DNA of 30,764 nucleotides, from positions 1 through 30,764 of IMG/VR virus record IMGVR_UViG_3300013132_000171. One strand, 5' to 3'. The notes below the pieces were generated by a model. The model made no database searches. It was not told the DNA's origin and saw only the letters and a list, made by a program, of their open reading frames with translations. A program made the position numbers and the translations under genes. This stretch comes from a virus. Positions 1,781 to 22,681 of this stretch are shown piece after piece (position 1 is the first letter of the stretch; each line of letters opens with the position of its first letter).

Positions 1781-2743
1781 ATGGCAACATCAGATCCACT
1801 GAAATTCAATCCAAATATTATTTATCCAACAAGTAAGTTGGTAAATTCGAATGAGGAACAAAGAGATAAAACTATGTTTCTTAAGTTTTGCTGTAGAAAA
1901 TGGGTTGACACCGTATCATCTGGAGCTGGTGTTTTTTCAAGTAATTATATTCAGGTGAATCCTACAGATCTTTATTCTGGCATGGATAATAGAATTAGTA
2001 CAATATTTGTTCCTGTTCCTAAACAATTGGTCAGTTCAACTAATGTTAAATATACAGATGATACAACAACTTTAACTTCATTAAAATCATTAGGTATTGG
2101 AGCTATCGAATCGGTTACTGAATTTTTTGGAATAGGTAAGCTTTTTTCTTCTCAGACTGAAGGTAGAAGAGATATTGATAATACCCAAACTCTTTTTTCT
2201 AATGCAGAAAAAAGAAATTTTAATTTAAGTTTTACTTTATTAGCAACTACAACTAGTGAGGCAAGAGAAGTCGCGCTAATTGCTAATACTTTTCATGCAT
2301 TAGCTTTACCAACAATTAAGGCTACAAGCTCTAGTACAGGTGGAGTAGCTTCGGGGGCTGCATCTGGAGCAGCGGTTGGAGCATCTATAGGCGTAGTATT
2401 TGCAGGAGTGGGTGCTGTACCTGGTGCTGGTATAGGTGCAGCAGCAGGAGCTGTAGGAAGTTTAATAAAAATTGATAAAGGGTATTCTCCACCACTTTGG
2501 AGGTTTGGAATAGGAATGGGACTTACTGGAAAGATAGATCCATCCTGGCTTGGTCAAACACAACTTTGTGTATTAAAAAGCGTAAGCATTAATACTGCTG
2601 CTGGTGGTAGCCCATATTCTATTCAGGACACTGGTAATATGCCAAAACCACTTCTTACAAGTTTTTCGTTATCATTCACTGAACTTGATCCAGTTTATCG
2701 TCTTGATGATGGAATAAATATAATATCTAAGAACTCAATCTAA
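1781..2743 (+). CDS. 48: Baseplate tail-tube cap protein gp48-like
   Basis: A 320-residue protein (T4 gp48 is 364). The C-terminal region has the gp48 pattern: SPPLWRFGIGMG near residue 235, a Gln/Cys-Leu-Lys-Ser-Val strand, then LLTSFSLSFTELDPVYR (residues 290-306) close to the LxFxELEP signature of gp48/gp54. gp48 caps the hub and starts tail-tube polymerisation. An odd feature is residues 186-228, a Gly/Ala-rich hydrophobic stretch with Gly every fourth residue (GAASGAAVGASIG), a turn at VPGAG, then GIGAAAGAVG. This looks like a glycine-zipper hairpin inserted in a loop. The start is the first gene start of the plus operon and has no clear Shine-Dalgarno sequence. The stop overlaps the gp53 start (TAATG). 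Confidence 0.8.
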   Translation: MATSDPLKFNPNIIYPTSKLVNSNEEQRDKTMFLKFCCRKWVDTVSSGAGVFSSNYIQVNPTDLYSGMDNRISTIFVPVPKQLVSSTNVKYTDDTTTLTSLKSLGIGAIESVTEFFGIGKLFSSQTEGRRDIDNTQTLFSNAEKRNFNLSFTLLATTTSEAREVALIANTFHALALPTIKATSSSTGGVASGAASGAAVGASIGVVFAGVGAVPGAGIGAAAGAVGSLIKIDKGYSPPLWRFGIGMGLTGKIDPSWLGQTQLCVLKSVSINTAAGGSPYSIQDTGNMPKPLLTSFSLSFTELDPVYRLDDGINIISKNSI

Positions 2744-3687
2744 TGTATCTAGAAAAATTTCCATTACTTACTTATACATTTAATAATACTGATTATTCAT
2801 TAGTAGATATTTTTAGAAGAGTTACTTTTAAACAAAGTACACTTGAAAATATTTCTGCTTTTTTTACATATTATGTTACTGATGACGATACTCCAGAAAA
2901 TATTGCAACAAATTTTTATGGTGATTCTTCATTATGGTGGTTGGTTTTATTACCAAATAATATAATAAGCAATAATGAATTTCCAATATCAGAAAATTAT
3001 CTGATTAAATTAATCGAAAATCAATATCCTGGAAAAATATTATTTTTTAATGAATATATGCCAGATTTAAAATCTGGTGACATCTTGGCTGGAGTTACAT
3101 TAAATGCAGAGGAAACTGCTGTTGTAGAAACAAGTGAATCTGATTATGCAGTAATTAAAGATTATAATAAAACATTTAGATATGTTGTTGTAAACGATAT
3201 AAATGGTACTTTAGAGGCCAATGATAAAGTAGGATTCTATAATAAAGATAGTGTTGAATTAAATCATGATTATATTTTAACATTTGGTGGTAATAATAAA
3301 TTAAAATCGTGGGCTACTATTAGGCGTGTCATGACAGAAAAAGAAGCACCAATAGAGTTTCAAGATGCTAATTATAATTTTGTTTCACCATATAAAGTCA
3401 ATAGTTCATATGATGCAAGTTCAACTGCAATAGGAATATACAATAATGATGATGATTTATCTGATGTAGAAACTATTAATAATACATCTTTATATAAATT
3501 TATGATATCATCAAATGACTCAAATGTTTCTTTTATTAAAAGTAATCAATCACAATTGATAAGAGACAATGAAAAATATAGATCAATAAAATTACTAAAT
3601 CCTAAATTTGTATCATTAGTTGTAAATGAGATTATTTCTTTATTAAATTCGAATAATAAAACTATATCCATAACGGTGAATACATAA
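2743..3687 (+). CDS. 53: Baseplate wedge protein gp53
   Basis: The N-terminal 90 residues carry the clear gp53 signature: FPLLTYTF, a VDIFRRVTF strand, then DTPENIATNFYGDSSLWWLVLLPNNI (in two parts here, residues 48-73), which in the family reads YGxxxLWWLIxxxNxI. gp53 is a T4 wedge subunit that helps join wedges around the hub. At 314 residues it is longer than T4 gp53 (196); the extra C-terminal part has a small beta-rich segment (residues 100-200) and a hydrophilic tail ending in a RSIKLLNPKFVSLVVNEI motif, which is also typical of longer relatives. Both ends overlap neighbours by TAATG junctions, so it is probably translationally coupled to gp48 and the hub gene. Confidence 0.88.
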   Translation: MYLEKFPLLTYTFNNTDYSLVDIFRRVTFKQSTLENISAFFTYYVTDDDTPENIATNFYGDSSLWWLVLLPNNIISNNEFPISENYLIKLIENQYPGKILFFNEYMPDLKSGDILAGVTLNAEETAVVETSESDYAVIKDYNKTFRYVVVNDINGTLEANDKVGFYNKDSVELNHDYILTFGGNNKLKSWATIRRVMTEKEAPIEFQDANYNFVSPYKVNSSYDASSTAIGIYNNDDDLSDVETINNTSLYKFMISSNDSNVSFIKSNQSQLIRDNEKYRSIKLLNPKFVSLVVNEIISLLNSNNKTISITVNT

Positions 3688-6600
3688 TGTCAATAATTAA
3701 TCTTGCATCTGTTGTTAGAAAAATTCAAATTATTAAGAATGATATTACTTTTGATATTTTACCATGGAATGGTGCTGTAGCAAATCCACTGGAAGAATTT
3801 AGATTTTTACAAGATATAAATTCTACAACTCTTGGTGGTCATCTTGTTATTAAAGATGCATTTAACTGGTCAGGTGATTTAAATCTTACAGGAACAGAAA
3901 AATTAATAGTTGAATTATTTTCTGATATAACTTATTCAAATACAAAAACAATAGAATTTAAAATATTTTCAATTCAACAAGTTACGAATACTGGAACAAA
4001 TGTCAGTATGAATCAATTTGAATATTTTAATGCAATTAAGATTGATTTTTCAACTGACAATATATTATCAGAATCAACTGAATATGACATTTTAAATCTA
4101 GGTGATGATTTTGTTGGATATATTTCTATTAACGAATCAACAGATAATAATTTTATAGAAGAAACAGCAACATCTATTAGTAATTTACAAAATAAAAATG
4201 TTCCTGGATTAATCAATGAAGTTTTTAAAAAGTTTGGAATTGATGAATATGAAATTGAAGCATCACATAATGGTGTCTGGATTCGTGCCAATGAGCTTAC
4301 ATATCCTTGGGCAAAAAGTAAAGGTCAAGTAAGTCTTGAGCAATTACTTAAATATGTTACTTCATATACAGTTTCAAGAAATAATAAGAATGCGATCAAT
4401 TATTTCTTATGGAGAGATATTGATGGTTATCATTTTAAATCTGTAGAAAAAATGATCGCAGATGCACCAGAGAATAAGAATTTTTATGTATTTACAAATG
4501 AAACAACTTATCCATTTGCTGTAAAAGCTGTATATGAAATGTCAGAAGCAAATATTTTGCAATTATCTGATAATAGTGTATTTCAATCTTTTTATGAAAA
4601 AATAACACCAAATTATGATGAGTATTATTTAGATTTCGTTGATAATAATCTATCTTTTAAGAGAGAAATAATCGATTTTAATTATCACCGAGATTATGAA
4701 TCATGGACTCCTATTGAGACAAATAAAATATTACCAGATTCAGTTACAACTTCTGTATATTCTGAAAATGGTAAAAATATATCTCAAAGTCTAAGAACTG
4801 ATGATGATGTATATGGATACTATGCAAATTCAAAATTAAACACACCATTTCCACAGAAGTGGGATCATATTGGAAAAACTGCTGATTCAAGATGGAATGA
4901 TGTTGTATTCATACCTCAATATGATATGACAGAGTTAGATATACAAACATTCTATACAATTCATAAAAAGATTCGTGAGCCTTTACGAGCCAAACGAACA
5001 AAATATTCTTATTTGAAAAATTTAAAAAGAAAATGGGAAGTCTATAGATGTTCAGTGTGTTGTCTTTCCGATAGACTTGGTGGTATACAAGATGAATTAG
5101 ATATAGCAAGAATTCGTGGAGTAACAAATCCACAAGATAGTCTTGAATTTAAATTATTATTCGGACCAACTGGAATATTTGGTGATCTTGGAGTAAATTA
5201 TAAAGTTGCCGCAGCAGGATCATTTAGCGATATTTATAATTATAATTCTGAGATAAGTGTTAATAAAGGTATTACATTATCATATGATCTCAACAGTGCT
5301 CCATTTAATGAATCAATTTCTGATTTTTATAATATAAATCCGGATTTTTCAAATTATGAAAAACATATTTTTGAAAATGGATTTAAACAATATGATACTG
5401 AAGTTGCTATTTTTAATAAACGATTGACAATGATAAATGAATTTTTATCTAATGTTGAATCATATATTCAAGGAGCAAATCAATTTGTTACTGAAAACTT
5501 AGTTGATGATGAATTTGATCAATATAGTGCTTTTAATGGACCTTCAAAAATAGATCTAGATATGAAATTTCCAGATGGAAAGTGGTTAAGCAACAATATA
5601 GCATTAATTGCTTTTGATGAAGAGACTGGTGTATATAGTTTACCACAATCAGTATTTAACTGTTCAAAAGAAAAAATATTGTCTTCTGGTGGAAATTTTG
5701 CTTATACTTATAATTTTGATGAAGAATCACCAACAATTTACAGTTACGGTAATTTTTTTAATAATTTTGATTATTTTAATAAATTTACTGATTTTAATTT
5801 TAATCCTTTATTAGCAAATCCATACACTGATGCATATAATAAACTAATATCACATATTAATAATAAAAAAGCTTTTTGTGAAACTTGTGTAAATCCAGTT
5901 ACATTAAAAGTATATCAAAGATTATTAACAAAACAAAAAACAGTTATAGAACAAAATATAAAATTAATTCAATTTATTAAAACTACATTACAAGAAAATT
6001 TTTATGATAAATGGAAACAAGCTAAAGAAGAATATTTAAATAGAAAAGCTTTTTTCATTTCTAAAGAAGAAAATAAAATAAAAAATATTGATGAAAATAT
6101 TATTTCATCAAATTTATCTCTTTATAATATAAAATCAATACAACGAAAACCAATTCGTAATTCAAGATATGAAATCTTAGCAAGAAGTCGCGGTATATCT
6201 GATAATAAAATTGGAGAATATTTACATAAAATTTATTTCAATGACGAAACTGTAAATATTTCTGAAGAAGGTAATCATCCATATTATGATCAACAATATA
6301 AACAAAATCTAGGAAACTCATCCTTTCAAAGTTTACCTAATCCTAGTAGACTAAAATCAATATCAGATGTTTTGACTTCTAATAATCCACCACTTGGTCA
6401 ATATGGTCCACCAGTAATAGGAAAACTAAGAGGTTTTATTGAAACATATGAAAATAATTATAGTAATCAATCTTTGACAGATATTGGTTTGGGTAATAGA
6501 GATTTAGATTATCAACAAAAATTTTTGAATGCTAATTTTGAAAATTTTGGCGATAGATATAATATTTTTAAAAGCAATTTACAAGATAAAAAACCACCAG

Positions 6601-8432
6601 TATTAAAAAGAGAAGAAATTGCTTCATATGTACGAATAGAATTTAAACAACCAATAGGAATTGAATCACTTTCTGATTTTCCAGAAGGATTTGTTAGAAA
6701 TGCTGGATATGAATATTTTCTTCCTTATATTGTTTCATTAACAGCAGGACCAAATGGAAGACAGACAATTAATCAAAATATTGTTGTGATTGGTATGGAT
6801 CCATATGGTTTTGATGTAGCCATGAAAAGAATTGCTGATTATAAACAAGATGGTGAATATTATTGGTGGTGGTCTGGATTAGATTCACCTCAAATGGATC
6901 TTTGGCCAGAAATTGCATTTGAAACAAAATATCCTTATTATACAAATTATGAAAATAATGAACCTAAATCTAATTCTTTTTATGGATTGAATGACGAACC
7001 AGATCCATTTTATTTGTTTGCTAATAATACATTTTTAATAAATGATGGAATATCTGAAACTAATGCTCTAAATACAACTGATGAATTCATATTAGATAAA
7101 AAGGTAAATATTAGTAAATTTTCTTATGGTATGCCAGAATATTTAGATTTTAAATATAGGTTTTTAAAAAATAGCAAATATAATAAAAATTTAAAAGATA
7201 CTAATAATTGTTCATCATATTTTTTAAATAGCAATAGAGTAACAAAAGCTTGTAGAAATTGGTGGTCATTTCATATTCCTTCAAATATTATGATCATTCC
7301 TTTGTTTAAAGATATATTTTTATCAAGTTTACCTATTAATTTAAAAAATTATGAAAATATTACTACAGCAAATACTACTACTGATTATGGTTATTTTAAT
7401 AATTTTTATGATTCAATTGTCAATAGAAACAGATCATCAACTAATGATGAGTCACTTCAATTTGATAAAAATTATGACTTTTCAGAAATATTAGACACAT
7501 TAAATTCTGAAAATATTAATTTATTCTATGATAATACAAATCAATATGAAACTGTAAGTGTATTTAAAAATAACGATACTTTTAAACAAATACATCCTGA
7601 AATAAAAGCTTATTTTAAAGAAATTACAAACTGGTGGTTATCTGGTGATCATATAATTTATAGACCTGGACTTTTAACTGAAGATGTCTGGAAATATGAC
7701 TTATCTGGTTATACCGAATATGGTATGGTTTTCCCTCCAGTAAAACAAAATCACGGAGATGTGTTTGATAATAATTTTGCTGCTCAGTTTGTAGTATTTG
7801 CAAAAACAACAGATATTTGTACAAAAAATAATTTAAAATGCATTAATCCCGGTGGATTCGTAACAACATCTGGATGCACCGCAGGCAATCCATATTGTAA
7901 TTGTCCTGCACAAAATCGTAAGCCAACAAAGGCAGAGCCATCATATCTTGAAATTTATAAATTAGAACAAGAAATGAAAGAATGTACTCTGATTACAGAA
8001 CATCTTGGTGAAGAATGGCTTGGATGTGTGTGGTCAAATCCAGAAAGTACATCCAGTTGTAATTGTCCTGAAGTGGGTGATAAGTTCATGGATTATCTTG
8101 AGTACAATCGAACTTACGCCACATTCTGGAATACCCCAGCAAAGACTCCATTATTAAGAAATGCTCAGATTAATTTGCTGTTTAGCACTAAACTTCATAT
8201 TAAAGTTCAGGCCAATCCTTCACTTAAGATCGGAGATATAGTAGCCATAATACAACCAAACACTGTACCAGATGGTCCGAATCCACATAGAAGATTTACT
8301 GGAAAATATCTGGTTACTTCTATAAACTATGTTTTCAATGGAAATGCTGTTGATTACTATGAATTAGTATTAAATAGGGACAGTTCATTCTTTGATCCAA
8401 ATAAAGGTTCAGAACCACTTGTTACTCAATAA
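3687..8432 (+). CDS. 27: Giant baseplate hub protein, gp27-like with about 1,100-residue insertion
   Basis: A 1,581-residue protein whose two ends resemble T4 gp27 (391 residues), the trimeric hub that holds the tail spike. Residues 1-330 form a beta-rich domain. NAINYFLWRDIDGYHFKSVE (from about residue 236) parallels the FVFVWQDIMG segment of T4 gp27. Residues 1490-1581 (LKIGDIVAII, then TGKYLVTSINYVF and YYELVLNRD) match the gp27/late-control-D C-terminal domain. The middle is not recognised. It contains a CSVCC motif (about 455), a CETC motif (730), a likely coiled coil (742-807), an aromatic patch (about 1057) and two CNCP motifs (1404 and 1458). The middle is much more AT-rich than the 3' end. 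It overlaps gp53 by one base. The start and the conserved ends argue against a chance fusion. No lysozyme domain (gp5) is seen. Confidence 0.78.
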   Translation: MSIINLASVVRKIQIIKNDITFDILPWNGAVANPLEEFRFLQDINSTTLGGHLVIKDAFNWSGDLNLTGTEKLIVELFSDITYSNTKTIEFKIFSIQQVTNTGTNVSMNQFEYFNAIKIDFSTDNILSESTEYDILNLGDDFVGYISINESTDNNFIEETATSISNLQNKNVPGLINEVFKKFGIDEYEIEASHNGVWIRANELTYPWAKSKGQVSLEQLLKYVTSYTVSRNNKNAINYFLWRDIDGYHFKSVEKMIADAPENKNFYVFTNETTYPFAVKAVYEMSEANILQLSDNSVFQSFYEKITPNYDEYYLDFVDNNLSFKREIIDFNYHRDYESWTPIETNKILPDSVTTSVYSENGKNISQSLRTDDDVYGYYANSKLNTPFPQKWDHIGKTADSRWNDVVFIPQYDMTELDIQTFYTIHKKIREPLRAKRTKYSYLKNLKRKWEVYRCSVCCLSDRLGGIQDELDIARIRGVTNPQDSLEFKLLFGPTGIFGDLGVNYKVAAAGSFSDIYNYNSEISVNKGITLSYDLNSAPFNESISDFYNINPDFSNYEKHIFENGFKQYDTEVAIFNKRLTMINEFLSNVESYIQGANQFVTENLVDDEFDQYSAFNGPSKIDLDMKFPDGKWLSNNIALIAFDEETGVYSLPQSVFNCSKEKILSSGGNFAYTYNFDEESPTIYSYGNFFNNFDYFNKFTDFNFNPLLANPYTDAYNKLISHINNKKAFCETCVNPVTLKVYQRLLTKQKTVIEQNIKLIQFIKTTLQENFYDKWKQAKEEYLNRKAFFISKEENKIKNIDENIISSNLSLYNIKSIQRKPIRNSRYEILARSRGISDNKIGEYLHKIYFNDETVNISEEGNHPYYDQQYKQNLGNSSFQSLPNPSRLKSISDVLTSNNPPLGQYGPPVIGKLRGFIETYENNYSNQSLTDIGLGNRDLDYQQKFLNANFENFGDRYNIFKSNLQDKKPPVLKREEIASYVRIEFKQPIGIESLSDFPEGFVRNAGYEYFLPYIVSLTAGPNGRQTINQNIVVIGMDPYGFDVAMKRIADYKQDGEYYWWWSGLDSPQMDLWPEIAFETKYPYYTNYENNEPKSNSFYGLNDEPDPFYLFANNTFLINDGISETNALNTTDEFILDKKVNISKFSYGMPEYLDFKYRFLKNSKYNKNLKDTNNCSSYFLNSNRVTKACRNWWSFHIPSNIMIIPLFKDIFLSSLPINLKNYENITTANTTTDYGYFNNFYDSIVNRNRSSTNDESLQFDKNYDFSEILDTLNSENINLFYDNTNQYETVSVFKNNDTFKQIHPEIKAYFKEITNWWLSGDHIIYRPGLLTEDVWKYDLSGYTEYGMVFPPVKQNHGDVFDNNFAAQFVVFAKTTDICTKNNLKCINPGGFVTTSGCTAGNPYCNCPAQNRKPTKAEPSYLEIYKLEQEMKECTLITEHLGEEWLGCVWSNPESTSSCNCPEVGDKFMDYLEYNRTYATFWNTPAKTPLLRNAQINLLFSTKLHIKVQANPSLKIGDIVAIIQPNTVPDGPNPHRRFTGKYLVTSINYVFNGNAVDYYELVLNRDSSFFDPNKGSEPLVTQ

Positions 8433-8444
8433 TAAATAAAATAT

Positions 8445-8828
8445 ATGGTAATACAAAAAAATCTTTATTCAGATTTAAATTTTTTTATTAGTAAAAATCC
8501 ATTTACTAATGATTTTGCCATACGTAAAGATCATAATGCGATTAAACAATCAATTAAGAATATTGTGTTAACAAATTTTGGTGAAAGACCATTTTTAAGA
8601 AATTTTGGAAGTGATATATACAATTCAGTATTCGAACACCCCGAACTTATACAATTTTATGTTGATGAAAGCTTAAGAATAGCAATCAATAAATTTGAAC
8701 CCCGTATAGCACTTATTGATATTGTTTACACTACTTTAGAAAATACATTAAGTATTGATATTTCGTATTCAATAACATCATTAAATGTACAAGATACCTT
8801 TAATATAGAAATAGCGAGAACAAGATAA
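8445..8828 (+). CDS. 25: Baseplate wedge protein gp25 (GPW/gp25 family)
   Basis: A 127-residue protein, nearly the same as T4 gp25 (132). It has the classic family pattern: a variable N-terminus ending in NDFAIRKDHNAIKQSIKNIV, then TNFGERPFLRNFGSDIYNSVFE (residues 44-65), followed by two amphipathic strands to the end. The gp25 fold is lysozyme-like but non-catalytic. The protein sits at the wedge core and contacts the first sheath ring in contractile systems, including T6SS TssE. It is followed directly by gp6 (TAATG), the conserved order in contractile tails. A 12-base spacer precedes it with AATAAATA at 8431-8438, a 7/8 match to the T4 late -10 box, but no Shine-Dalgarno sequence. Confidence 0.95.
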   Translation: MVIQKNLYSDLNFFISKNPFTNDFAIRKDHNAIKQSIKNIVLTNFGERPFLRNFGSDIYNSVFEHPELIQFYVDESLRIAINKFEPRIALIDIVYTTLENTLSIDISYSITSLNVQDTFNIEIARTR

Positions 8829-10555
8829 TGTCGAATAATATTAATTTAGGTTCTATTAACTATGAACAAATTAAGAGCAGTCTTACTGAATTTTTAAAGA
8901 CTCAAGATACTTTAAAGGATTATAACTTTGAAGGTTCTGTTTTGCAGTCAATTGTAAGTCTATTAAGTTATAATACAATGTATTATGCCTTCTATTCAAA
9001 TATGCTTGCGAATGAAATGTTTTTAGACACAGCACAACGTGAAGAATCTATAGTTTCATTATTAAAACCACTTGGTATTACCGTACCAACAAAAACTTCG
9101 GCAAGAGCAAAGATAAAAATGGGTGGTTCTCCAACAATTCCTCAGTTTGCTAAATTTTCAGGAAAAAATGATTCGGGTATAATATATAATTTTTATACTT
9201 TACAAGATTATGCTGCGGACGTAAATGCTGATGATTTTATTGATAACATTGTTATCGTTGAAGGTCGTCAATTAATAAAGCATAAAATAGTAACTAATTT
9301 GATTGATTATATAAATCAAACTTATTTTGTTGCAGATAATACAATTGATATTTCTACCCTTATTGTAGAAATTGATACTGGTGATGGTGTATGGAGACAA
9401 TGGAATTTACTTGATAATATTGGCGATTCTACTGAAAATCTAAGTCAAAATTGTTATTTTGTTGAAAGATTTGAAACTGGATTTGAAATTCAATTTGGAA
9501 AAGAAAATTCATTAGGAAACGAAGTATTAGATTCTTATAATACAAGAATAAGTTATTTGACATCTAATGGATCAGCAGCAAACAATATTGTTAATTTTGA
9601 ATATGAAATACCAGGAAATACAATAGAATTGGTTGAAACCGCAGCTGGAGGATTAAATAGTCCTGATGTTGATTATTTAAAATTCATTGGTCCTAAATTT
9701 TTTGCTGCCCAAAATAGAGCAATTACCAAAAATGATTTTTTAGCTATATCTACTGTATATTTAAGAAATAAAGGATATGATGTAACTAAAGATAATTTTT
9801 CTATTTTTGGTGGAGATGAATTATTTCCTCCAAAATACGGACGAGTTTTTATTGCAACTGATGTAATTGCGACCTCAGATATTCTTGATTTGATTTCATA
9901 TTTGAAAACCAAATGTGCAATTACAATTCTACCCGAATATGTTGAATCAACATCAGATAATTTAACATATGATGTTCAATTAAAATTCAATGATATTGGA
10001 ACAATTGAAAAACAAAAAACTATTGCAAATATTAAAAATTATTTAATTAGAAATTATTCGATAGTAAGTAAATATAATATTAATTTTGATACTGATGAAA
10101 TAAACAATAATATATTGAGTAATTTTTCGAATGTAAGATCAGTTAATATTATTTTAAATTATAATAAAACTTATACAGATGCTTCTATAAATGGTGTGAA
10201 TATAAATCTAGAAAATGAATTTAATATTCAAGTTGGAACTTCAAAATCCGTAGTTGTTCCATTTTTAGACAAAATAGGTAAGACAATTGATCTACGTGCT
10301 TCATTGGTAAGTTCAAGTGAGCTAGATTCACTTGTTAATCTTAAAACTTATGTATTAAATGCAGATGGTAATTATAAATTAAATTCAAATTTAAACTATG
10401 GTAAAATAAATGTAAAACGTGGTATTCTTCAAATTAATGATATAGCATCACAAAATATAAAAGTTAATCTTGACTTTATTAATAGAAAATTTACTACAAG
10501 TCAAAATGTAAAGTATACAATATTACCAAATAGAGTAATTGAGATTGATGCATGA
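8828..10555 (+). CDS. 6: Baseplate wedge protein gp6 (J-like family)
   Basis: A 575-residue protein (T4 gp6 is 660). The N-terminus has the gp6/phage P2 gpJ pattern: INYEQIKSSLTEFLKTQ, DYNFEGSVLQSIVSLLSYNT, ANEMFLDTAQREESIVSLLKPLG (in sequence over residues 8-90). The middle contains GGLNSPDVDYLKFIGPKFFA and RAITKNDFLAI, the typical segment where gp6 proteins have an AVTxxDY-like helix. gp6 dimers form the ring that holds the wedges together and joins them to gp25 and gp53. It follows gp25 with a TAATG overlap and runs into the gp7-like gene by a 4-base ATGA overlap, which suggests coupled translation of wedge subunits. Confidence 0.92.
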   Translation: MSNNINLGSINYEQIKSSLTEFLKTQDTLKDYNFEGSVLQSIVSLLSYNTMYYAFYSNMLANEMFLDTAQREESIVSLLKPLGITVPTKTSARAKIKMGGSPTIPQFAKFSGKNDSGIIYNFYTLQDYAADVNADDFIDNIVIVEGRQLIKHKIVTNLIDYINQTYFVADNTIDISTLIVEIDTGDGVWRQWNLLDNIGDSTENLSQNCYFVERFETGFEIQFGKENSLGNEVLDSYNTRISYLTSNGSAANNIVNFEYEIPGNTIELVETAAGGLNSPDVDYLKFIGPKFFAAQNRAITKNDFLAISTVYLRNKGYDVTKDNFSIFGGDELFPPKYGRVFIATDVIATSDILDLISYLKTKCAITILPEYVESTSDNLTYDVQLKFNDIGTIEKQKTIANIKNYLIRNYSIVSKYNINFDTDEINNNILSNFSNVRSVNIILNYNKTYTDASINGVNINLENEFNIQVGTSKSVVVPFLDKIGKTIDLRASLVSSSELDSLVNLKTYVLNADGNYKLNSNLNYGKINVKRGILQINDIASQNIKVNLDFINRKFTTSQNVKYTILPNRVIEIDA

Positions 10556-11745
10556 TCCCAATTTATTTACAAAACACAATTTTAAATAATAATCATGCTG
10601 TCAATAATTTAATAGAGTTATTGACAGAGGAAATATTAACCACACAAAATAAATCAACATCTGCATCAAATATTCTTAAAAATGATCAAAGATTCAATAC
10701 AAATAATTTAGAAACTTGTGGGACTCTTTTTGATATTACTAAATTTATTCCACTTTGGATAATAAAAGAAAAAGAAGAACGTGAAAATGGTGGTGAATCA
10801 GTACTTACAATTTATGATTTTTTACAAAAATATTATGATTGGTTGTATTGTGATAATTTTACTGGTGCTCAGTATGGTCTTTCCAAGAATATATTGGATC
10901 TTATAGATGTCAGAAAAACAAAAGAAAATTTAATAAAAAATCTATATTCTGTTTATGGAGAATCATTGACTGGTATTTTTGATTCAGATTCACTAGATGT
11001 TGGTCGAACAGAATTAGAAAAATTCTTTATTGGTATACGTAAGAATTTTTATCATAGAAAAGGTACTGAAGATGGTATAAGAAAATTACTGACCACTTTA
11101 TTTGTAATTGATAAAGCTGATATTGAAATAGAAATACCAAAACAATTTATTTTACGACTTAATGGTGGTAAATTTGCAGATTCAAACTTCACATTTAGAA
11201 CTGGAACCGGAGACACTGGTGGATATCTTGAAAAGGGTGATCTATCTGGTAGTTATCTAAATTTTTCGAGATTGCATGATACCAATTGGTATCATGATTT
11301 CTCTTATTTAGTATTTGTTGGTCCTAATTATAATGACAATGATGATTTAGAAGAAGTTTATAGAAAGAGTAATCATCCGGCTGGTACTCATTTAATATTT
11401 GGAAAGCAATTGTCTGATTTTCAACCATCAGAACCTGATGATGAAAGCGGTACAGTATGTGAATATCCAATGTTAGCAAATTATGCTCCATATAAATTGA
11501 ATATAACCTATGCCGCATTGGGATCAATTAATGGATTGTCTTTCTATGGTATTACTTCTTGTGTTGGTTGTTGTGGGGCAAGTTTTTCTGGATTTACTGG
11601 TCCGACTCATAGATTTCCAAACTGGAATCAATTAATTACTGAAGACAGTTTTGGTAATATAAATATACAAGATTTTATTATTTTATGTTATGCTGATGGA
11701 ATCACTAGCCCAAATGAAAATCTAACCTGTACTGGTTGTAACTAA
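10552..11745 (+). CDS. 7: Baseplate wedge protein, gp7-like / P2 gpI-like, short
   Basis: A 397-residue protein in the gp6-gp7-gp8 position. Residues 80-180 contain FLQKYYDWLYC and FFIGIRKNFYHRKGTEDGIR, the helix pattern (FxxxYYxWL, then YxxKGTxxGxxxLL) seen at the N-terminus of gp7-type and P2 gpI-type wedge proteins. T4 gp7 is 1,032 residues, so this is a much shorter version lacking most of the outer arm. The C-terminal 70 residues are Cys-rich (CVGCC near residue 340, CTGC at the very end), unlike T4 gp7. The start overlaps the gp6 stop (ATGA) and the stop overlaps the next start (TAATG). Assignment as gp7 rests on position plus this motif. Confidence 0.7.
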   Translation: MIPIYLQNTILNNNHAVNNLIELLTEEILTTQNKSTSASNILKNDQRFNTNNLETCGTLFDITKFIPLWIIKEKEERENGGESVLTIYDFLQKYYDWLYCDNFTGAQYGLSKNILDLIDVRKTKENLIKNLYSVYGESLTGIFDSDSLDVGRTELEKFFIGIRKNFYHRKGTEDGIRKLLTTLFVIDKADIEIEIPKQFILRLNGGKFADSNFTFRTGTGDTGGYLEKGDLSGSYLNFSRLHDTNWYHDFSYLVFVGPNYNDNDDLEEVYRKSNHPAGTHLIFGKQLSDFQPSEPDDESGTVCEYPMLANYAPYKLNITYAALGSINGLSFYGITSCVGCCGASFSGFTGPTHRFPNWNQLITEDSFGNINIQDFIILCYADGITSPNENLTCTGCN

Positions 11746-16499: not shown

Positions 16500-16979
16500 A
16501 TGCCATCCTCTACTAGTTCAAATATACGAGCATCTAATACTGTAGTTAAGTTATCATCAGAAGGTGGTAATAGACTAATGGTACAGATTGCTTCTGCTCA
16601 AATTGCTCCTCCTGGATTATCTGCTGGAGATGTAATTTTCTATAGTGGTGCATCTGCATATTATAAACGATCAAAAGCCGATGATCCGGCAACAGCAGAA
16701 GTATTTGGCATTGTAGAAACAGTAGATGTTTCTGGAAATGCAAATGTCGTGCTATATGGATCTATTGGTTTGACAGGATTTATTGACGTAGATGATGGTG
16801 GTGCTGGAGGTCATGATATTTACTTTTTAAGTGGAAATACTGCTGGAAAATTAGAGTCATTGGCTCCAACAATCCAAGATCACATAGTTAAACCCGTATA
16901 TCAAGTAGCTCCTCATGGAAATTTTACAGGAACGGTTGTAAATTATATCGGTTATAAAGTACCAGTAAGTGACTCATAA
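16500..16979 (+). CDS. Small structural protein, paralogue of a fibre module
   Basis: A 159-residue protein whose residues 60-150 parallel residues 128-215 of the upstream fibre. DDPATAEVFGIV pairs with NNPENAEVLGLL, IYFLSGNTAGKL with IYFLDSNTAGKI, and VVNYIGYK with VLSYRGNYL, with nearly equal spacing (46/44 and 39/36 residues). It therefore looks like an independently encoded copy of that module, perhaps a fibre or virion decoration. An AAGGA Shine-Dalgarno sequence (16488-16492) with 7-base spacing supports the start, and the stop overlaps the next gene (TAATG). No enzymatic motif is seen. Confidence 0.7.
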   Translation: MPSSTSSNIRASNTVVKLSSEGGNRLMVQIASAQIAPPGLSAGDVIFYSGASAYYKRSKADDPATAEVFGIVETVDVSGNANVVLYGSIGLTGFIDVDDGGAGGHDIYFLSGNTAGKLESLAPTIQDHIVKPVYQVAPHGNFTGTVVNYIGYKVPVSDS

Positions 16980-19696
16980 TGGGATCTACAGGAAGCAGTT
17001 ATGTTTATTCTTTAGATATAGAATCCTATAGAAGAGGATTAACTGGTCCTACTGGACCAAGAGGTTTAACTGGACCAATTGGAGCCACTGGTAAAGGTAT
17101 TACAGGAGCAACAGGTAATCCTGGTGCAAGTCTTACTAATATAACAATAGCTCAAGATAAATCTTTTATATTTCATTATAGTGATAATACAACTATATCA
17201 TCATCTGAGGCGATTATAGGCGCAGATGGTTATTCAAAAATTAAATTAACTGGTATCAGCCTTGCTAATTTTAGTCCTTTAAGTGGTTCTCTAACTGATC
17301 AAACTTACGATACTGAATTTCCTGTTGATACACTAATATTTAAAGGTTTATCTTCTGCAAGTTCTCCATATGTAAGAGTAAATTATATTGATGATAATAG
17401 AATCAGAATAGATTTTGATGCGATAAATATTGGCTTTATTGGTATAAGTGGTGGAACATTAGGAAATATATTACAAAATCTACCAGGTCAAAATCAGGCT
17501 GGTATTACATCAACAAACTACGATGAAACTGAAAAATCAGTTCTTATTCAACATAAGAATATTCAAGAAAGTCTTGTAATATGTAAACCAACAGTGGTTA
17601 ATTCTTCATTAGTTTATTGGAAAATAGACTCATCACTTGGTTCAGTATTTCATATTAATCCATATACTACTACATTGAATACTAATAATGAAATAAATGG
17701 TTATGTATTCTTTATTAAAGAACCACCAGTTGGAACTTTATCAAAAGGACTTGTTGTTCAATTTCCTGATACATTTGTTTTAAATTCAAATAAAATTTAT
17801 TATGTATTGTATGACGATGATACAGATATAGATTCCGGTATTACATTTGGTGATAATTTCTTTAATCGTTTTGATGTAGCCGGACTTGAATGGCAAAATA
17901 ATACGTATTTTTGTCCAGATGGAAAATATAATACATTAAATTTAATATCATTAGGTGGACGTTATTTAGCGTATCCAGTTCAATATGAACAAGACACAGC
18001 AAGCTCGACAAGTTATATTAATTCACAAAGTTTAAGTACAACTTGTTATCCATATGAAGAAAGAGCACCAACACAACAATTCTTTACTGGTGGTCTATGC
18101 TGTTCAGGAAATTGTTCGTCTTCTGCATATGAAAGTATAAGTGGTGGATGTACTGGTTATTTTATACCAACTAAAAGAATAAGTAATTCTTCTCTTTGTA
18201 GCAGAAATGGAAGTTGTTGTATAAAAATAAACGACGATACTTATACTCAACATGAATCAACATATTGTCAATGTTCAACCATGGCTGATGAAAAAGAATT
18301 TGTTTTCCATCCATATGAAGGATTAAAAACAACAGAACGTTGGTTCAATTGTTTTGCTGCCTGTTTCGGACCAGTTACAATTGGTGCATGTTGTGATGGT
18401 TTAGGTACTTGTTATGAAGATGAAAATGAAAATGTTTGTCAATCACAGGGATATTTTTTCCAAGGAATCGGAGTAAAATGTAAACCTGATGATCAAAGCA
18501 CTAATATTTGTAGTGGTGGATCTGGTGGCTGTTGTGATTCTGGTGTTAGTTGTGTAAATGGATATACAGGCAGTCAATGTATTTCTGAAAGTAAGTCATA
18601 TCTTGGTGATCAAAAATATTGTCAATCATATACATGTTCTCCTGATTCTATTTCCTGTTCACAGACTATTCCAGGAATATCTGAACTCAAGCAAGGTGAT
18701 GAGTATGCTGGTGGTATAGTTGTTGGTATATTTAATTTAGATCAATCTAAAATATTTGGTAATCTTATATTTTCTACTATAGATAATTATACAAATTTTG
18801 ATTCAATAGATCAGATTAATTTAAATGATACATTATCAAATAATTATACTATAAAATATGATTTTCACGGTTATGGCTTTGATAAGCCATTTATTACAAG
18901 AACATCAAAAACCGATAAATTTATTTTGATTATCTCAAAAGATGATTTGACATTGAATAGTACTAATGAATTTGTATGGTCTAAAGGACAAATAGCATGG
19001 GGAAATATCTATAATCCTATAACAAATACAGTTGAAGAAATAACATCTACATCTGTGTTTAATCAGGGTGAGGGTATTATATCAAATACTAATATAATCA
19101 ACAATACTTTCGCCAGTTCTTCAATAAGAACCAGTGGAAGTGCTTTACAATGGTTGTTTAGTCAATCATCATCTGGATATACAGCAAAATGGCGTAGAAA
19201 TTATGGTCTATATAATACACATAGATTAATGACATCTAAATTATTATATTCGGAAGATACATCAATTACAGATTCGACTATTTACGAAGCCATTAAAAAA
19301 TATAATATTGATAATCCACCAACTTCAGATCGTGAGTCAAGTTGGTTTATTCCATCACATGATGAGTTGGGTTTTATTTCATATCTAACAAGAGAAATAA
19401 ATGATTTTAATATAAATGGATCATTATTATTATCTGGTTACTCTCAATTAGATGGTACATATTGGACTTCTACTGGAGCACATACAACTGCAAATGCAAA
19501 TAGTACATCAAATAAAGGATCTAACGCATGGATTCATTATATCGATGCAGCTCGTCCAGAAGATAATTATTCAATTACAGCAAATAGAATACAAAATACA
19601 TATAAAGTCAGACCAATTAAGCTAATACGGTGTGATGGGTCGTATCCTTTACCCGGCGATGAAACTTACAAACTATGGCGTTTGCCTCTAATCTAA
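16979..19696 (+). CDS. Collagen-like, Cys-repeat, lectin-like adhesin 1
   Basis: A 905-residue multidomain protein, likely displayed at the baseplate. Residues 20-51 are Gly-X-Thr/Pro collagen-like triplets. Residues 55-200 are a beta region. Residues 371-560 hold about four Cys units (LCCSGNC, GACCDGLGTC, GGCCDSGVSC and a GSCC unit). Residues 573-885 match the DUF1566/Lcl_C (C-type lectin-like) family: GDEYAGGIVVGIF, then SSWFIPSHDEL (783), YWTSTGAH (827) and a final VRPIKLIR. That family has GGxV, W-(R/x)-(L/I)-P, YW(S/T)ST and RPVR landmarks. The function inferred is binding of a host surface ligand; the exact ligand is unknown. It has no signal peptide, as expected for a virion protein. 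The last 20 codons are GC-richer than the flanks. Confidence 0.8.
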   Translation: MGSTGSSYVYSLDIESYRRGLTGPTGPRGLTGPIGATGKGITGATGNPGASLTNITIAQDKSFIFHYSDNTTISSSEAIIGADGYSKIKLTGISLANFSPLSGSLTDQTYDTEFPVDTLIFKGLSSASSPYVRVNYIDDNRIRIDFDAINIGFIGISGGTLGNILQNLPGQNQAGITSTNYDETEKSVLIQHKNIQESLVICKPTVVNSSLVYWKIDSSLGSVFHINPYTTTLNTNNEINGYVFFIKEPPVGTLSKGLVVQFPDTFVLNSNKIYYVLYDDDTDIDSGITFGDNFFNRFDVAGLEWQNNTYFCPDGKYNTLNLISLGGRYLAYPVQYEQDTASSTSYINSQSLSTTCYPYEERAPTQQFFTGGLCCSGNCSSSAYESISGGCTGYFIPTKRISNSSLCSRNGSCCIKINDDTYTQHESTYCQCSTMADEKEFVFHPYEGLKTTERWFNCFAACFGPVTIGACCDGLGTCYEDENENVCQSQGYFFQGIGVKCKPDDQSTNICSGGSGGCCDSGVSCVNGYTGSQCISESKSYLGDQKYCQSYTCSPDSISCSQTIPGISELKQGDEYAGGIVVGIFNLDQSKIFGNLIFSTIDNYTNFDSIDQINLNDTLSNNYTIKYDFHGYGFDKPFITRTSKTDKFILIISKDDLTLNSTNEFVWSKGQIAWGNIYNPITNTVEEITSTSVFNQGEGIISNTNIINNTFASSSIRTSGSALQWLFSQSSSGYTAKWRRNYGLYNTHRLMTSKLLYSEDTSITDSTIYEAIKKYNIDNPPTSDRESSWFIPSHDELGFISYLTREINDFNINGSLLLSGYSQLDGTYWTSTGAHTTANANSTSNKGSNAWIHYIDAARPEDNYSITANRIQNTYKVRPIKLIRCDGSYPLPGDETYKLWRLPLI
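17036..17131 (+). repeat. Collagen-like Gly-X-Y tract in adhesin 1
   Basis: Eleven Gly-initiated units at residues 20-51, mostly GLT, GPT, GAT and GPI, with a one-step register break at GKG. Such tracts form trimeric stems in phage fibres. Confidence 0.85.
18090..18660 (+). repeat. Cys-repeat array in adhesin 1
   Basis: About four diverged units with a Cys-Cys pair, a third Cys 3-6 residues later, and one or more further Cys before a C-terminal Cys pair. The units at about residues 467 and 514 are the clearest. Confidence 0.7.
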
Positions 19697-19697
19697 A

Positions 19698-22664
19698 ATG
19701 ACTATAGGAAGTTCATTTCTACCGTATACTAGCAACATTATAGGACCAACAGGGCCGACAGGTGCTACTGGAGCAACTGGTCCCACCGGAGCAAGTGGCC
19801 AATTAATACTTGGACCGACTGGTATTTCTGGCCTTGGGATTACCGGATTTACATATATTTCTGGTAAAAATCTTACAATTTATATTGCTGGTACTGGATC
19901 AGTTGCTTTAGATATCCAGGGAAATACATCAGCATACACTAATCAATTTGCTGTTTTAAAGGGTAATACGACAAATGGTATTTCTGTTATTGTGCATAAT
20001 ACCGCAGACTTAAGAGATTTAAATGTACAACTTTTAACCGAAGGATCGACTCTAGCACTTAAAGGTATAACATTTAAATCATCAACAAATTCATATTTGT
20101 CGATTACTTCAGATGTTAATAAAATTTCTGTTGTAGGAAAGACATATAGCGTATATCCAGTTGGTGATACTGGAAATATTGCATATATCTATGGAATAAC
20201 AAAAGCAAAAGGAATTCCAAATTCTTACTGGTATAATGGAATTTCTATGCTTGATATTCCATTAGCATCAGAAAGACATGCAATTCATAATAATATTAAT
20301 TATGGAACTTCTCTTTCATTTACACAAAATATACTTGGATTCAGTGGTGCTACTGGAATATCAACGACTTTGTTGAATTTTAATCCGGCTTATGCAATAA
20401 ATCCAAATTTTTCAAGATATCAGGTAAATTTTGATGTAAATAATAAAATAGAATTAAATCAGACATTACATATTGGCTCTACAGGAGCAACTAATTTAAA
20501 CATAACATTCCTTAAAAATACTTATAATCGTGGTTATTCATTTACACCACAATTAATTACTAATGAAAATGTAGGATCGTGTTGTTTCTGTGAATTAGAT
20601 GAAACTGTTGATGATATTAAGTGTATTGATTATGCCAATGAAGAGTATTGTTTATCAATGGGAGGTAGCTTTAGAACAACTTCATGTTCGACTAGAGTTA
20701 TAAATGGAGACTGTTTCTCAGAAGGTGCATGTTGTTTAAATGATAAATGTGTAAATACATCACAAGATTTATGTTTAAAGTATGGTGGTATTTTCCACCC
20801 ACTTCAAGTATGTAATAATACAAGTGGTGGTGATGAATATTTCACATGCCCAACAACTTGTCCAAGTGAAATCGAAACAGGAAAATGTTGTGTAAATGGA
20901 AAATGTTTTGATAATTTTACAAATTTTGAATGTTTATCATTGAATAATAGTACATTTTTTAAAGATGGTATATGTGATACTTCTTCAGGTGATTGTGATT
21001 CTGATTGTTTTGATACATCAAAGGGTGGTTGTTGTAAGCCAGATGGAACTATTGTACAAACTGATGCTAACACTTGTAAAGAACAGGCTGGAATATTTTT
21101 AGGACCAGGTATTTTTAGTGGAAAATGTTGTACAAAAGATACTTCAATTGAATATTTTAATTCTAGTGATAATCTTTCTTGTAGAGCCACGGTTAATATT
21201 CCATGTCTTGATATAGGAACAAGACTTGGTGGTGGTTATCTTGTAGGAATTATTGGTGAACCATCTCCATGTACATCATTCTCATTTCCATTAATTGCAG
21301 AAGGTCAAGTTTTAGGATGTAGATATTATCCAAGAGGATTTATATCTGGTGGAGTAGATTATCGATATAAAAATTGTTTTGGTGGATCTGGTCAAACATT
21401 TGGTACTACAGATTTACCAGCATCTAAATTAAATATTAAATATTTTGCTAGAACACATCCTGATGTATTAAATCAAGTAGATAATAGAGAAAATAAATGT
21501 TTATTTAAAGGTGGTTCACCATATGTTATGCAAACATATGAAGGTAAAGTTAGAAAAACCGAAAGTTCTGCTGATGATATACAATGGCTAAATCTTGGTA
21601 TGTACGAACCAAGTCCATATGCAAAGGCATTATCATATCCTACATCAGAATTAAACAATGTTCTATTATTTGAGGGCATTGGACTACCTAAATCAGATAC
21701 TTATAGATCATTAGCAAAGCAATTTTATGGTTCGGCTGGAATTCCAGTACTATGGGCATTGATTGTTGCACCAAATGATATAGAACTTAATGGTGGAGAT
21801 AAATCACTCAAATGGGGTATGTCAGAAGGTAGAATAAAGGGATTAAATAATTCAAATCTTGAACCAATAAATACATGTCCTTTAGATGGTTTATTGACCA
21901 CACGAATGCACGACGAAACATCAAAACAAAATAGTTTCTTCTGGTACAGAGGCGAAACAGATACATTGGCATTCGATAGATTCTGTTTCTATGACGGTAG
22001 TGTTTCTGGTAAGAAAAATTGGGCAAATAATATCAATGAAAGTAATATTGAATCAAGTAAGACTGAATTTGAATTCGCTTATTCTAATATGTGGGATTCA
22101 AATAATTCAACAGATAGTTGCACCAAACAAATATCAATAGTAAATCAAACTGGTATAAATGGATATACTGATTGGTATATTCCAAGTATAATTGAATTAA
22201 ATTACATTTATGCCAATAAAAATGATCTAGATTCATCTATGTTATTAAATGGTGATTCAATATTAAATTCAGAATCTAACTATTGGAGTTCTACAAGTCT
22301 ATGTACATTACATTCATGGGATAACAATAATCCTAATGATAAATCAAAATATAAATTATTTGAAACTGCTTCAGGATCATTTAATTCTAAATTTAGATTT
22401 ACTAAGAGTGATTTAAATCTTAATGAATCAGATTTGTATGATTTAAGCATGAATATATGTAATGGTGAAAATATGCTTGTTCAAAGTTTTGATGATGGAT
22501 TTGTTCAGTCAAAAGCAAGAAACACTAAAGCGGCTTCACTTAGACCAGTAAGAAGAATACCAATTGTAATTCTTCCAACTGATACTACATGTAATTATTC
22601 AATCATAAATGCTTATATTGATTATGATTTTGAAACATGTGATTCATGTCCAGATGGATGCTAA
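19698..22664 (+). CDS. Collagen-like, Cys-repeat, lectin-like adhesin 2
   Basis: A 988-residue paralogue of the previous gene with the same order: collagen-like residues 16-33, a beta region with GITFKSSTNSYLSI (about 125), five Cys units (residues 293-500: GSCC, GACCLNDKC, GKCCVNGKC, GGCC, GKCC), then the DUF1566-like domain. It is recognised by GTRLGGGYLVGIIGE, LWALIVAPNDIELN, DWYIPSIIEL (825), YWSSTSLC (862) and LRPVRRIP (948). The lectin part is longer than in adhesin 1. It ends in a short Cys tail (CDSCPDGC). Only one base separates it from the upstream stop, so translation is probably coupled. Baseplate adhesin is inferred from position. The ligand is unknown. Confidence 0.8.
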   Translation: MTIGSSFLPYTSNIIGPTGPTGATGATGPTGASGQLILGPTGISGLGITGFTYISGKNLTIYIAGTGSVALDIQGNTSAYTNQFAVLKGNTTNGISVIVHNTADLRDLNVQLLTEGSTLALKGITFKSSTNSYLSITSDVNKISVVGKTYSVYPVGDTGNIAYIYGITKAKGIPNSYWYNGISMLDIPLASERHAIHNNINYGTSLSFTQNILGFSGATGISTTLLNFNPAYAINPNFSRYQVNFDVNNKIELNQTLHIGSTGATNLNITFLKNTYNRGYSFTPQLITNENVGSCCFCELDETVDDIKCIDYANEEYCLSMGGSFRTTSCSTRVINGDCFSEGACCLNDKCVNTSQDLCLKYGGIFHPLQVCNNTSGGDEYFTCPTTCPSEIETGKCCVNGKCFDNFTNFECLSLNNSTFFKDGICDTSSGDCDSDCFDTSKGGCCKPDGTIVQTDANTCKEQAGIFLGPGIFSGKCCTKDTSIEYFNSSDNLSCRATVNIPCLDIGTRLGGGYLVGIIGEPSPCTSFSFPLIAEGQVLGCRYYPRGFISGGVDYRYKNCFGGSGQTFGTTDLPASKLNIKYFARTHPDVLNQVDNRENKCLFKGGSPYVMQTYEGKVRKTESSADDIQWLNLGMYEPSPYAKALSYPTSELNNVLLFEGIGLPKSDTYRSLAKQFYGSAGIPVLWALIVAPNDIELNGGDKSLKWGMSEGRIKGLNNSNLEPINTCPLDGLLTTRMHDETSKQNSFFWYRGETDTLAFDRFCFYDGSVSGKKNWANNINESNIESSKTEFEFAYSNMWDSNNSTDSCTKQISIVNQTGINGYTDWYIPSIIELNYIYANKNDLDSSMLLNGDSILNSESNYWSSTSLCTLHSWDNNNPNDKSKYKLFETASGSFNSKFRFTKSDLNLNESDLYDLSMNICNGENMLVQSFDDGFVQSKARNTKAASLRPVRRIPIVILPTDTTCNYSIINAYIDYDFETCDSCPDGC
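19743..19796 (+). repeat. Collagen-like Gly-X-Y tract in adhesin 2
   Basis: Six perfect triplets from residue 16 (GPT, GPT, GAT, GAT, GPT, GAS), followed by a looser GPTGIS piece a few residues later. GC is higher than in the flanks because of the Gly/Pro codons. Confidence 0.85.
20574..21206 (+). repeat. Cys-repeat array in adhesin 2
   Basis: Five units starting GSCC, GACC, GKCC, GGCC and GKCC. Full units read x-CC-x(4)-C-x(6-8)-C-x(4-6)-G-x-F-x(3-6)-C, for example GACCLNDKCVNTSQDLC followed by GGIF. Confidence 0.85.
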
Positions 22665-22681
22665 ATAAATTGAGATAAATT

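Follow-up and report, generated by a model that had tools for sequence, protein, structure and literature searches.

IMG/VR virus record IMGVR_UViG_3300013132_000171 (positions 1 to 30,764; this whole 30,764-nucleotide stretch is hereafter the window) is identified by its genes as a fragment of a T4-like phage genome. Between its gp53-type and gp25 wedge genes lies a single open frame on the + strand, beginning with ATG, that encodes a baseplate hub protein of 1581 amino acids (aa). Both ends of the protein match the hub family phrog_350, and they are separated by an insert of about 1,175 residues, which its homologues show to be old and conserved within one clade of uncultured T4-like phages. 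The gene and its parts are as follows.

3687-8432, + strand: expanded hub gene, 1581 aa (open reading frame; phrog_350 in three stretches; homologues)
3687-4616, + strand: hub part 1, residues 1-310 (phrog_350 about 35-282; profile-profile probability 98.5%, E 1.9e-15)
4617-8138, + strand: insert, residues about 311-1484 (the gap between the phrog_350 stretches)
5007-5366, + strand: conserved insert block 1, residues 441-560, with CxxCC at 455-459 (5049-5063) (block alignment; C455, C458 and C459 invariant in 54 of 54 homologues)
5310-5504, + strand: amphipathic helical segment, residues 542-606 (strongest 3.5-3.6-residue periodicity of the whole protein)
5487-5846, + strand: hypervariable stretch, residues about 601-720 (mean column identity 0.25-0.36)
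5898-6068, + strand: segment poor in proline and glycine, probably helical, residues 738-794 (periodicity not significant)
6567-6926, + strand: best-conserved insert block, residues 961-1080 (mean column identity 0.64-0.83)
6927-7646, + strand: second variable stretch, residues 1081-1320 (mean column identity 0.24-0.49)
7818-8066, + strand: nine-cysteine cluster with two CNCP motifs (C1378, C1385, C1397, C1404, C1406, C1433, C1447, C1458 and C1460, invariant in 54 of 54)
8139-8429, + strand: hub part 2, residues 1485-1581 (phrog_350 about 349-435; profile-profile probability 97%, E 9.4e-11)

Relation of the hub ends to phrog_350 and gp27

The phrog_350 profile covers the window protein at positions 35-161 and 174-277 (N-terminal end) and 349-428 (C-terminal end). 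The profile-profile values listed above were obtained with hhalign, using residues 1-345 and 1470-1581 as separate queries against uninterrupted phrog_350 proteins. All 24 expanded-hub members scanned match phrog_350 (best E 3.5e-30). In other T4-like phages the profile matches in one piece, within a frame of 393-483 aa, and complete short-hub genes in loci gathered with a gp6 profile are 417-500 aa long. These uninterrupted hubs (393-500 aa) thus differ from the expanded family, in which the profile is split and the protein is 1526-2175 aa, a growth of about fourfold. The insert stands in place of a link of about 70 residues in the short hubs.

Gene order agrees with this assignment. The window reads gp48-gp53-hub, then gp25-gp6, and the hub occupies the same position in phiM7, Kuttervirus PST-D24 and HTVC008M, where the gene following gp48-gp53 is an uninterrupted phrog_350 protein of 416-462 aa. 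In P-RSM4, the phrog_350 gene is located elsewhere.

The sequence-only reading had described a gp27-type hub whose two ends resemble the two parts of gp27, interrupted by about 1,100 residues at 4700-8150. The interruption is real, belongs to a stable gene family and lies close to where it was placed; the resemblance holds for phrog_350, but not directly for gp27. T4 gp27 falls in a different PHROG, phrog_1135, and when the ends of the window family were compared with it separately, the matches were not significant (2.9% and 0.1% probability). A Pfam scan of the window protein returned no family. Short phrog_350 hubs do align with gp27, weakly but collinearly (57% probability, E 1e-4, residues 56-434 against 49-360). 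The label "gp27-type" is therefore right by position and probably by descent, via phrog_350, and the nearest relatives by sequence are the phrog_350 hubs of Kyanoviridae, Ackermannviridae and phiM7-like phages rather than T4 gp27. Carried over through the phrog_350-gp27 alignment, the insert site falls at about residues 225-300 of T4 gp27, which we take to be the junction of domains 3 and 2 in the gp27 structure.

The insert

There are 54 distinct complete homologues of the window protein (1526-2175 aa), from many metagenomes, and at least 153 relatives in IMG/VR; the lineage has no isolate, and its members are uncultured. The 54 aligned proteins share 98 invariant residues, dominated by G, F, Y, C and P, at a density per 100 residues of 2.3 in residues 1-310, 7.2 in the insert and 6.2 in the C-terminal part. 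The two best-conserved blocks of the entire protein, residues 961-1080 and 1321-1480, are both within the insert. The former, with the motifs YVRIEF, GFVRxAG.EYFLPY, GPNGRQ and DPYGFDVA in that order, exceeds hub part 1 in mean column identity (0.64-0.83 vs 0.41-0.63). Between the conserved blocks lie hypervariable stretches at 601-720, 881-960 and 1081-1320. In the first of these, between the helical segment at 542-606 and the C659 motif, 10 of the 54 homologues carry a GPP/GPT collagen repeat of 24-69 residues, which is absent from the window protein. Tail-fibre PHROGs are matched by three expanded-hub members.

Other features that had been read from the letters alone fared unevenly. CxxC motifs are present (CxxCC at 455-459, CxxC at 731-734 and the nine-cysteine cluster at 1378-1460). 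A coiled coil is plausible but not proven, since residues 542-606 are strongly amphipathic-helical, whereas residues 738-794 lack significant periodicity. The hand counts of G+C were exact (15% in the sixty-base line at 6061, 10% at 7141, 38% and 40% at 8041 and 8101), but they do not set the insert apart: the window averages 30% G+C, with seven of its 512 sixty-base lines no higher than 15%, and the insert (26.7%) is on a par with the N-terminal part (26.2%), which rules out AT-richness as a mark of foreign origin.

No insert block matched any Pfam, PHROG or PDB profile, and searches of 50,697 phage records and of 84,980 bacterial and archaeal genomes found no relative of the insert outside the lineage. 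In the phage-record search, one divergent member (L037; L numbers denote loci and G numbers contigs) matched phage hubs solely through its last 80 or so residues. An origin from gp7, gp5, gp8-12, gp26, gp28, gp29, the 646-aa Kuttervirus neighbour or the phiM7 peptidase was considered and rejected, as hhalign comparison of the insert with each was negative. Motifs resembling a metal-ion-dependent adhesion site (MIDAS) in one-chain hubs were also set aside, being scattered and without companion motifs.

One-gene and three-gene forms

T4-like loci over a wide range of distance were gathered by a gp6 profile scan. In L151, L160/L170, L161 and L163, three adjacent genes (N, M and C) occupy the place of the hub between gp53 and gp25; in L150 and L154, the M-C half is visible. 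The N gene (650-723 aa) comprises hub part 1 and the CC motif, and the C gene (241-281 aa) comprises the cysteine cluster and hub part 2. Both match phrog_350 (hhalign 97.8% and 95.8%), and all three frames have their own start and stop codons with no run of N. The sequence-only reading had raised the case of relatives with a normal-length gp27 and a separate gene; as it turns out, distant relatives have a normal-length hub, and in the sister clade it is the expanded hub itself that is spread over three genes.

The M genes vary in length (294-1420 aa) and lie at these positions.

L151, 6812-7696: M gene
L160, 4841-7792: M gene
L161, 3447-7709: M gene
L163, 2185-4932: M gene
L154, 2-2689: M gene (partial)

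Their cysteine content is 4-15% (170 of 1420 aa in L161; 135 of 895 in partial L154), and each complete M gene begins with a CCC motif. Family matches are limited to a weak one in L163 to phrog_26928, of unknown function (E 1.2e-4), and a weak one in L151 to a CobT-type von Willebrand factor A (VWA) domain (E 0.043). By eye, the L151 gene has a VWA/MIDAS-like set (DYSGS, GGT, LSDG). A PDB match of one M gene to a growth-factor kringle was discarded as a low-complexity cysteine match. As no similarity was found between the one-chain insert and the M genes or the N-gene tail, M may replace the variable part of the insert instead of being its homologue.

In a gp6 tree (66 sequences, quick method), all 38 expanded-hub loci fall on one side of a branch of length 0.76 with 100% support. 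The six three-gene loci group together (94), and the one-chain loci L037, L159 and L162 fall outside that group. In L155 the cut lies elsewhere (its C gene has 369 aa), which suggests that a second split arose independently. The simplest reading of these sequences is one expansion followed by at least two splits, though the reverse order is also possible.

Conserved cysteines

Of the 17 cysteines in the window protein, 12 are invariant in all 54 homologues (455, 458, 459, 1378, 1385, 1397, 1404, 1406, 1433, 1447, 1458 and 1460). All 12 sit in the insert; the probability of at least 12 under random placement of the invariant residues is about 8e-12. Where other cysteines or other forms of the hub vary, they tend to do so in twos. 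C659 and C734 are kept in 53 of 54 proteins, and both are missing only in L037. C455 is present in 29 of 29 one-chain proteins and in none of four three-gene proteins, and C1378 in 54 of 54 one-chain proteins and in none of six C genes of the three-gene clade, although L155 retains it. C1397 and C1404 are absent together from L159, L162 and L155. Most three-gene C proteins have two extra cysteines, one after each CNCP motif. Eight cysteines (458, 459, 1385, 1406, 1433, 1447, 1458 and 1460) are retained in nearly all forms. The pairwise losses fit disulfides at 455-1378, 1397-1404 and 659-734.

It may instead be that the cysteines bind metal, for example a [4Fe-4S] cluster as in lambda gpL and the hub of the gene transfer agent RcGTA, where a four-cysteine site lies in the part equivalent to the hub insertion. 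The eight near-constant cysteines would be enough for two such sites. However, the remaining cysteines vanish two at a time, unlike the ligands of a four-ligand site, and the gain in the three-gene form is also of a pair. Metal binding in place of disulfides is possible, if on the unlikely side.

Proposed role of the insert and other baseplate proteins

We infer both fold and function here from sequence comparison, and the reading we favour stands at about an even chance of being correct: a trimeric hub of a contractile T4-like tail that bears a disulfide-linked, outward-projecting contact or adhesion module. Folded against each other, the two hub parts would make up the usual ring by which the tail tube is closed. 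From this ring, near the equivalent of the gp27 domain 3/domain 2 junction, the insert would emerge and project outward. Where its chain comes back, it would be anchored to the ring by the conserved cysteines, lost in pairs, probably as disulfides; the three-gene form could use them to hold its separate chains to one another. A central module for contact or adhesion would be made up of the variable stretches, including the collagen-like segment that some members have, and would reach the host surface before the tail contracts or while it does so. A collagen-like segment requires three chains, which fits a three-fold hub. The insert may also supply mass or contacts that in other phages come from the middle domain of gp7 and, possibly, do some of the work of the gp5 spike. 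The adhesive side of this reading draws on the collagen repeats in 10 of 54 homologues, the tail-fibre PHROG matches of three members and the cysteine-rich M genes, all of them contents that resemble those of adhesins. Most likely, a cysteine-linked module projects from the ring and contacts either the host or outer baseplate parts.

Several points weigh against this reading. Direct similarity to T4 gp27 is not significant, and in the searches run, the insert has no sequence relation to any known adhesin or fold. Few independent events underlie the pairwise loss of cysteines; with eight cysteines that never vary, a metal site is possible; and T4-like baseplates assemble in the reducing cytoplasm. 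The relation between gp7 and hub size described below is one contrast across about one branch, and it has exceptions: gp7 is 620 aa in G010 and 1178 aa in L117 (where the protein is extended at its other end), and the short-hub locus L219 has a gp7 of 324 aa. The absence of gp5 comes from a profile search of possibly incomplete contigs, which a divergent spike might escape.

The gp7-position proteins of HTVC008M and phiM7 are 1016 and 1006 aa long, as opposed to 372-426 aa in the lineage, and the lineage proteins match them at both ends only, aligning to residues 155-275 and 760-805 of HTVC008M with the middle skipped. In a survey with a profile of the short form, counting profile-confirmed complete proteins, eight of nine short-hub phages, and one of 12 members of the expanded-hub clade, had 230-1,760 additional residues inserted at the same site of gp7. 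In short-hub loci L164-L218, this insert is hypervariable. The contrast suggests that mass may have moved from wedge to hub. The gp53 protein, 314 aa in the window and 302-359 aa in the lineage (168-196 aa in HTVC008M, phiM7 and T4), is a third inner baseplate protein that is enlarged.

These sizes bear on a rather unlikely alternative, in which the insert is mainly architectural: it would stand in for outer parts of the baseplate, the middle domain of gp7 among them, and link the hub to the wedges, itself making no host contact. The reciprocal gp7 and hub sizes of the two clades, the enlarged gp53 and the core blocks that are better conserved than the hub parts are all in keeping with it. However, the hypervariable stretches, collagen repeats and cysteine-rich middle genes look exposed and fast-evolving, which is not expected of an inner scaffold, and the insert and gp7 share no sequence similarity.

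The spike protein is the other point of interest. Profiles for gp5 (phrog_430, PF04717 and PF06714) found no match in G000, G001, G010, G011 or G012, nor did phrog_694 in G010-G012; these profiles find gp5 in P-RSM4, phiM7 and, by the two Pfam models, T4. No gp5-type spike or lysozyme family was seen in G010 (L132-L139, 156.7 kb) or in the other lineage contigs searched. No match to an oligonucleotide/oligosaccharide-binding (OB) fold or gp5 profile was found in the insert itself, and hhalign against four gp5 proteins was negative. The missing gp5 families would suit an insert that carries cell-envelope enzymes in place of the gp5 lysozyme. There is precedent in a myophage, Anabaena phage A-1(L), whose hub protein gp15 is enlarged by lysozyme, endoglucanase and peptidase domains (PMC10966104), and the hubs of Deep-Blue and Vp4 are lytic (PMC11406892). 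Yet no insert block matches a Pfam, PHROG or PDB profile, and the invariant residues show no clear sign of the conserved polar triads that hydrolases typically have, so an enzymatic insert is quite improbable. A misjoined assembly of two genes or an annotation artefact, which a long AT-rich frame and the broken hub of related contig G012 might have hinted at, is refuted by the 54 distinct complete homologues, and the apparent two-gene hub of G012 is a scaffold gap in which the break is a run of N.

Returning to the projecting, disulfide-linked module, a bolder version can be put forward, which we consider unlikely in its entirety: the lineage may have moved its outer, host-contacting machinery from the six gp7 wedges to the three-fold hub. 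This hub would be disulfide-linked, carry an adhesin at its centre (in some members on a collagen stalk), consist of a single chain or of three chains joined by cysteines, and perhaps work without a gp5-type spike.

Comparison with known hubs

The nearest true family is that of the phrog_350 hubs, annotated "tail protein", of the Kyanoviridae (P-RSM4, HTVC008M), Ackermannviridae (PST-D24) and phiM7. Their ends are homologous to those of the window hub and they are placed beside gp48-gp53, but they have neither insert nor conserved cysteine cluster, and their gp7 usually has a large middle insert. T4 gp27 (391 aa), a probable distant homologue by way of phrog_350, likewise has no insert, and T4 has a separate gp5 spike.

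Other enlarged or divided hubs are less close. The A-1(L) hub is also enlarged by extra domains, but these are recognisable enzymes, one of them C-terminal, whereas the insert here matches none. The hubs Deep-Blue gp189 and Vp4 gp110 match Mu gp44 in two pieces with about 130-170 residues between them (PMC11406892), an insert about eight times smaller, and they have a C-terminal peptidase. In lambda the hub is spread over several genes (gpL, gpI and gpJ), while T5 pb3 is one chain with an inserted module, and a four-cysteine [4Fe-4S] site lies at the insertion (PMC10721106). As in the lineage described here, the hub is split in one phage and a single chain with an insert in another; however, these are siphophages, the insertion is in hub domain II, the cut points differ, and here there are 12 invariant cysteines. 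The baseplate of Agrobacterium phage Milano is held by many disulfides (PMC10811340), but those are in the sheath and wedges and its hub is ordinary. Each element is thus already known by itself: an enlarged hub from A-1(L) gp15, split or fused hubs from lambda and T5, and a disulfide-tied baseplate from Milano; as far as the literature searched shows, their combination and the size of this hub are new.

In contractile injection machines, the hub-spike complex counts as the conserved core, and the expanded hubs suggest that the core of the T4 tail is open to more change than had been assumed. With its one-gene and three-gene forms, the lineage offers a contractile-tail parallel to lambda gpL/gpI/gpJ and T5 pb3 and a natural test of the fusion and splitting of tail modules, while the loss of cysteines in pairs allows specific bonds to be predicted. 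If the insert is the adhesin, abundant uncultured T4-like phages have a host-range determinant that has escaped notice under the label "tail protein".

Other features of the window

The hub gene is flanked by the following genes.

1781-2743, + strand: gp48-type baseplate tail tube cap (phrog_230, E 5.6e-16)
2743-3687, + strand: gp53-type baseplate wedge subunit, 314 aa (phrog_232, E 1.9e-21; PF11246, E 2.9e-7)
8445-8828, + strand: gp25 baseplate wedge (phrog_261, E 8e-32; PF04965, E 1.5e-13)
8828-10555, + strand: gp6 baseplate wedge, basis of the tree (phrog_219, E 2.2e-69)
10552-11745, + strand: gp7-position wedge protein, 397 aa, without the large middle insert of short-hub relatives (alignment at both ends)
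from 11745, + strand: gp8-like wedge protein

Further structural genes follow the gp8-like gene, including collagen-repeat fibre genes, and then gp13-, gp14-, gp15- and gp16-like genes. No provirus or host of the lineage was found among the 84,980 bacterial and archaeal genomes searched. G010, a member of 156.7 kb, has a terminase 55-57% identical to those of Synechococcus T4-like phages. Upstream of gp48, in the position that a T4 gp4-type head completion gene would take, is a TnsA-like endonuclease N-terminal domain (1335-1766, - strand; PF08722, E 3.4e-22). At 16979-25894, three successive fibre genes (905, 988 and 1070 aa) each have a collagen-like repeat within the first 50 or so residues, and these shared beginnings suggest a common attachment design.

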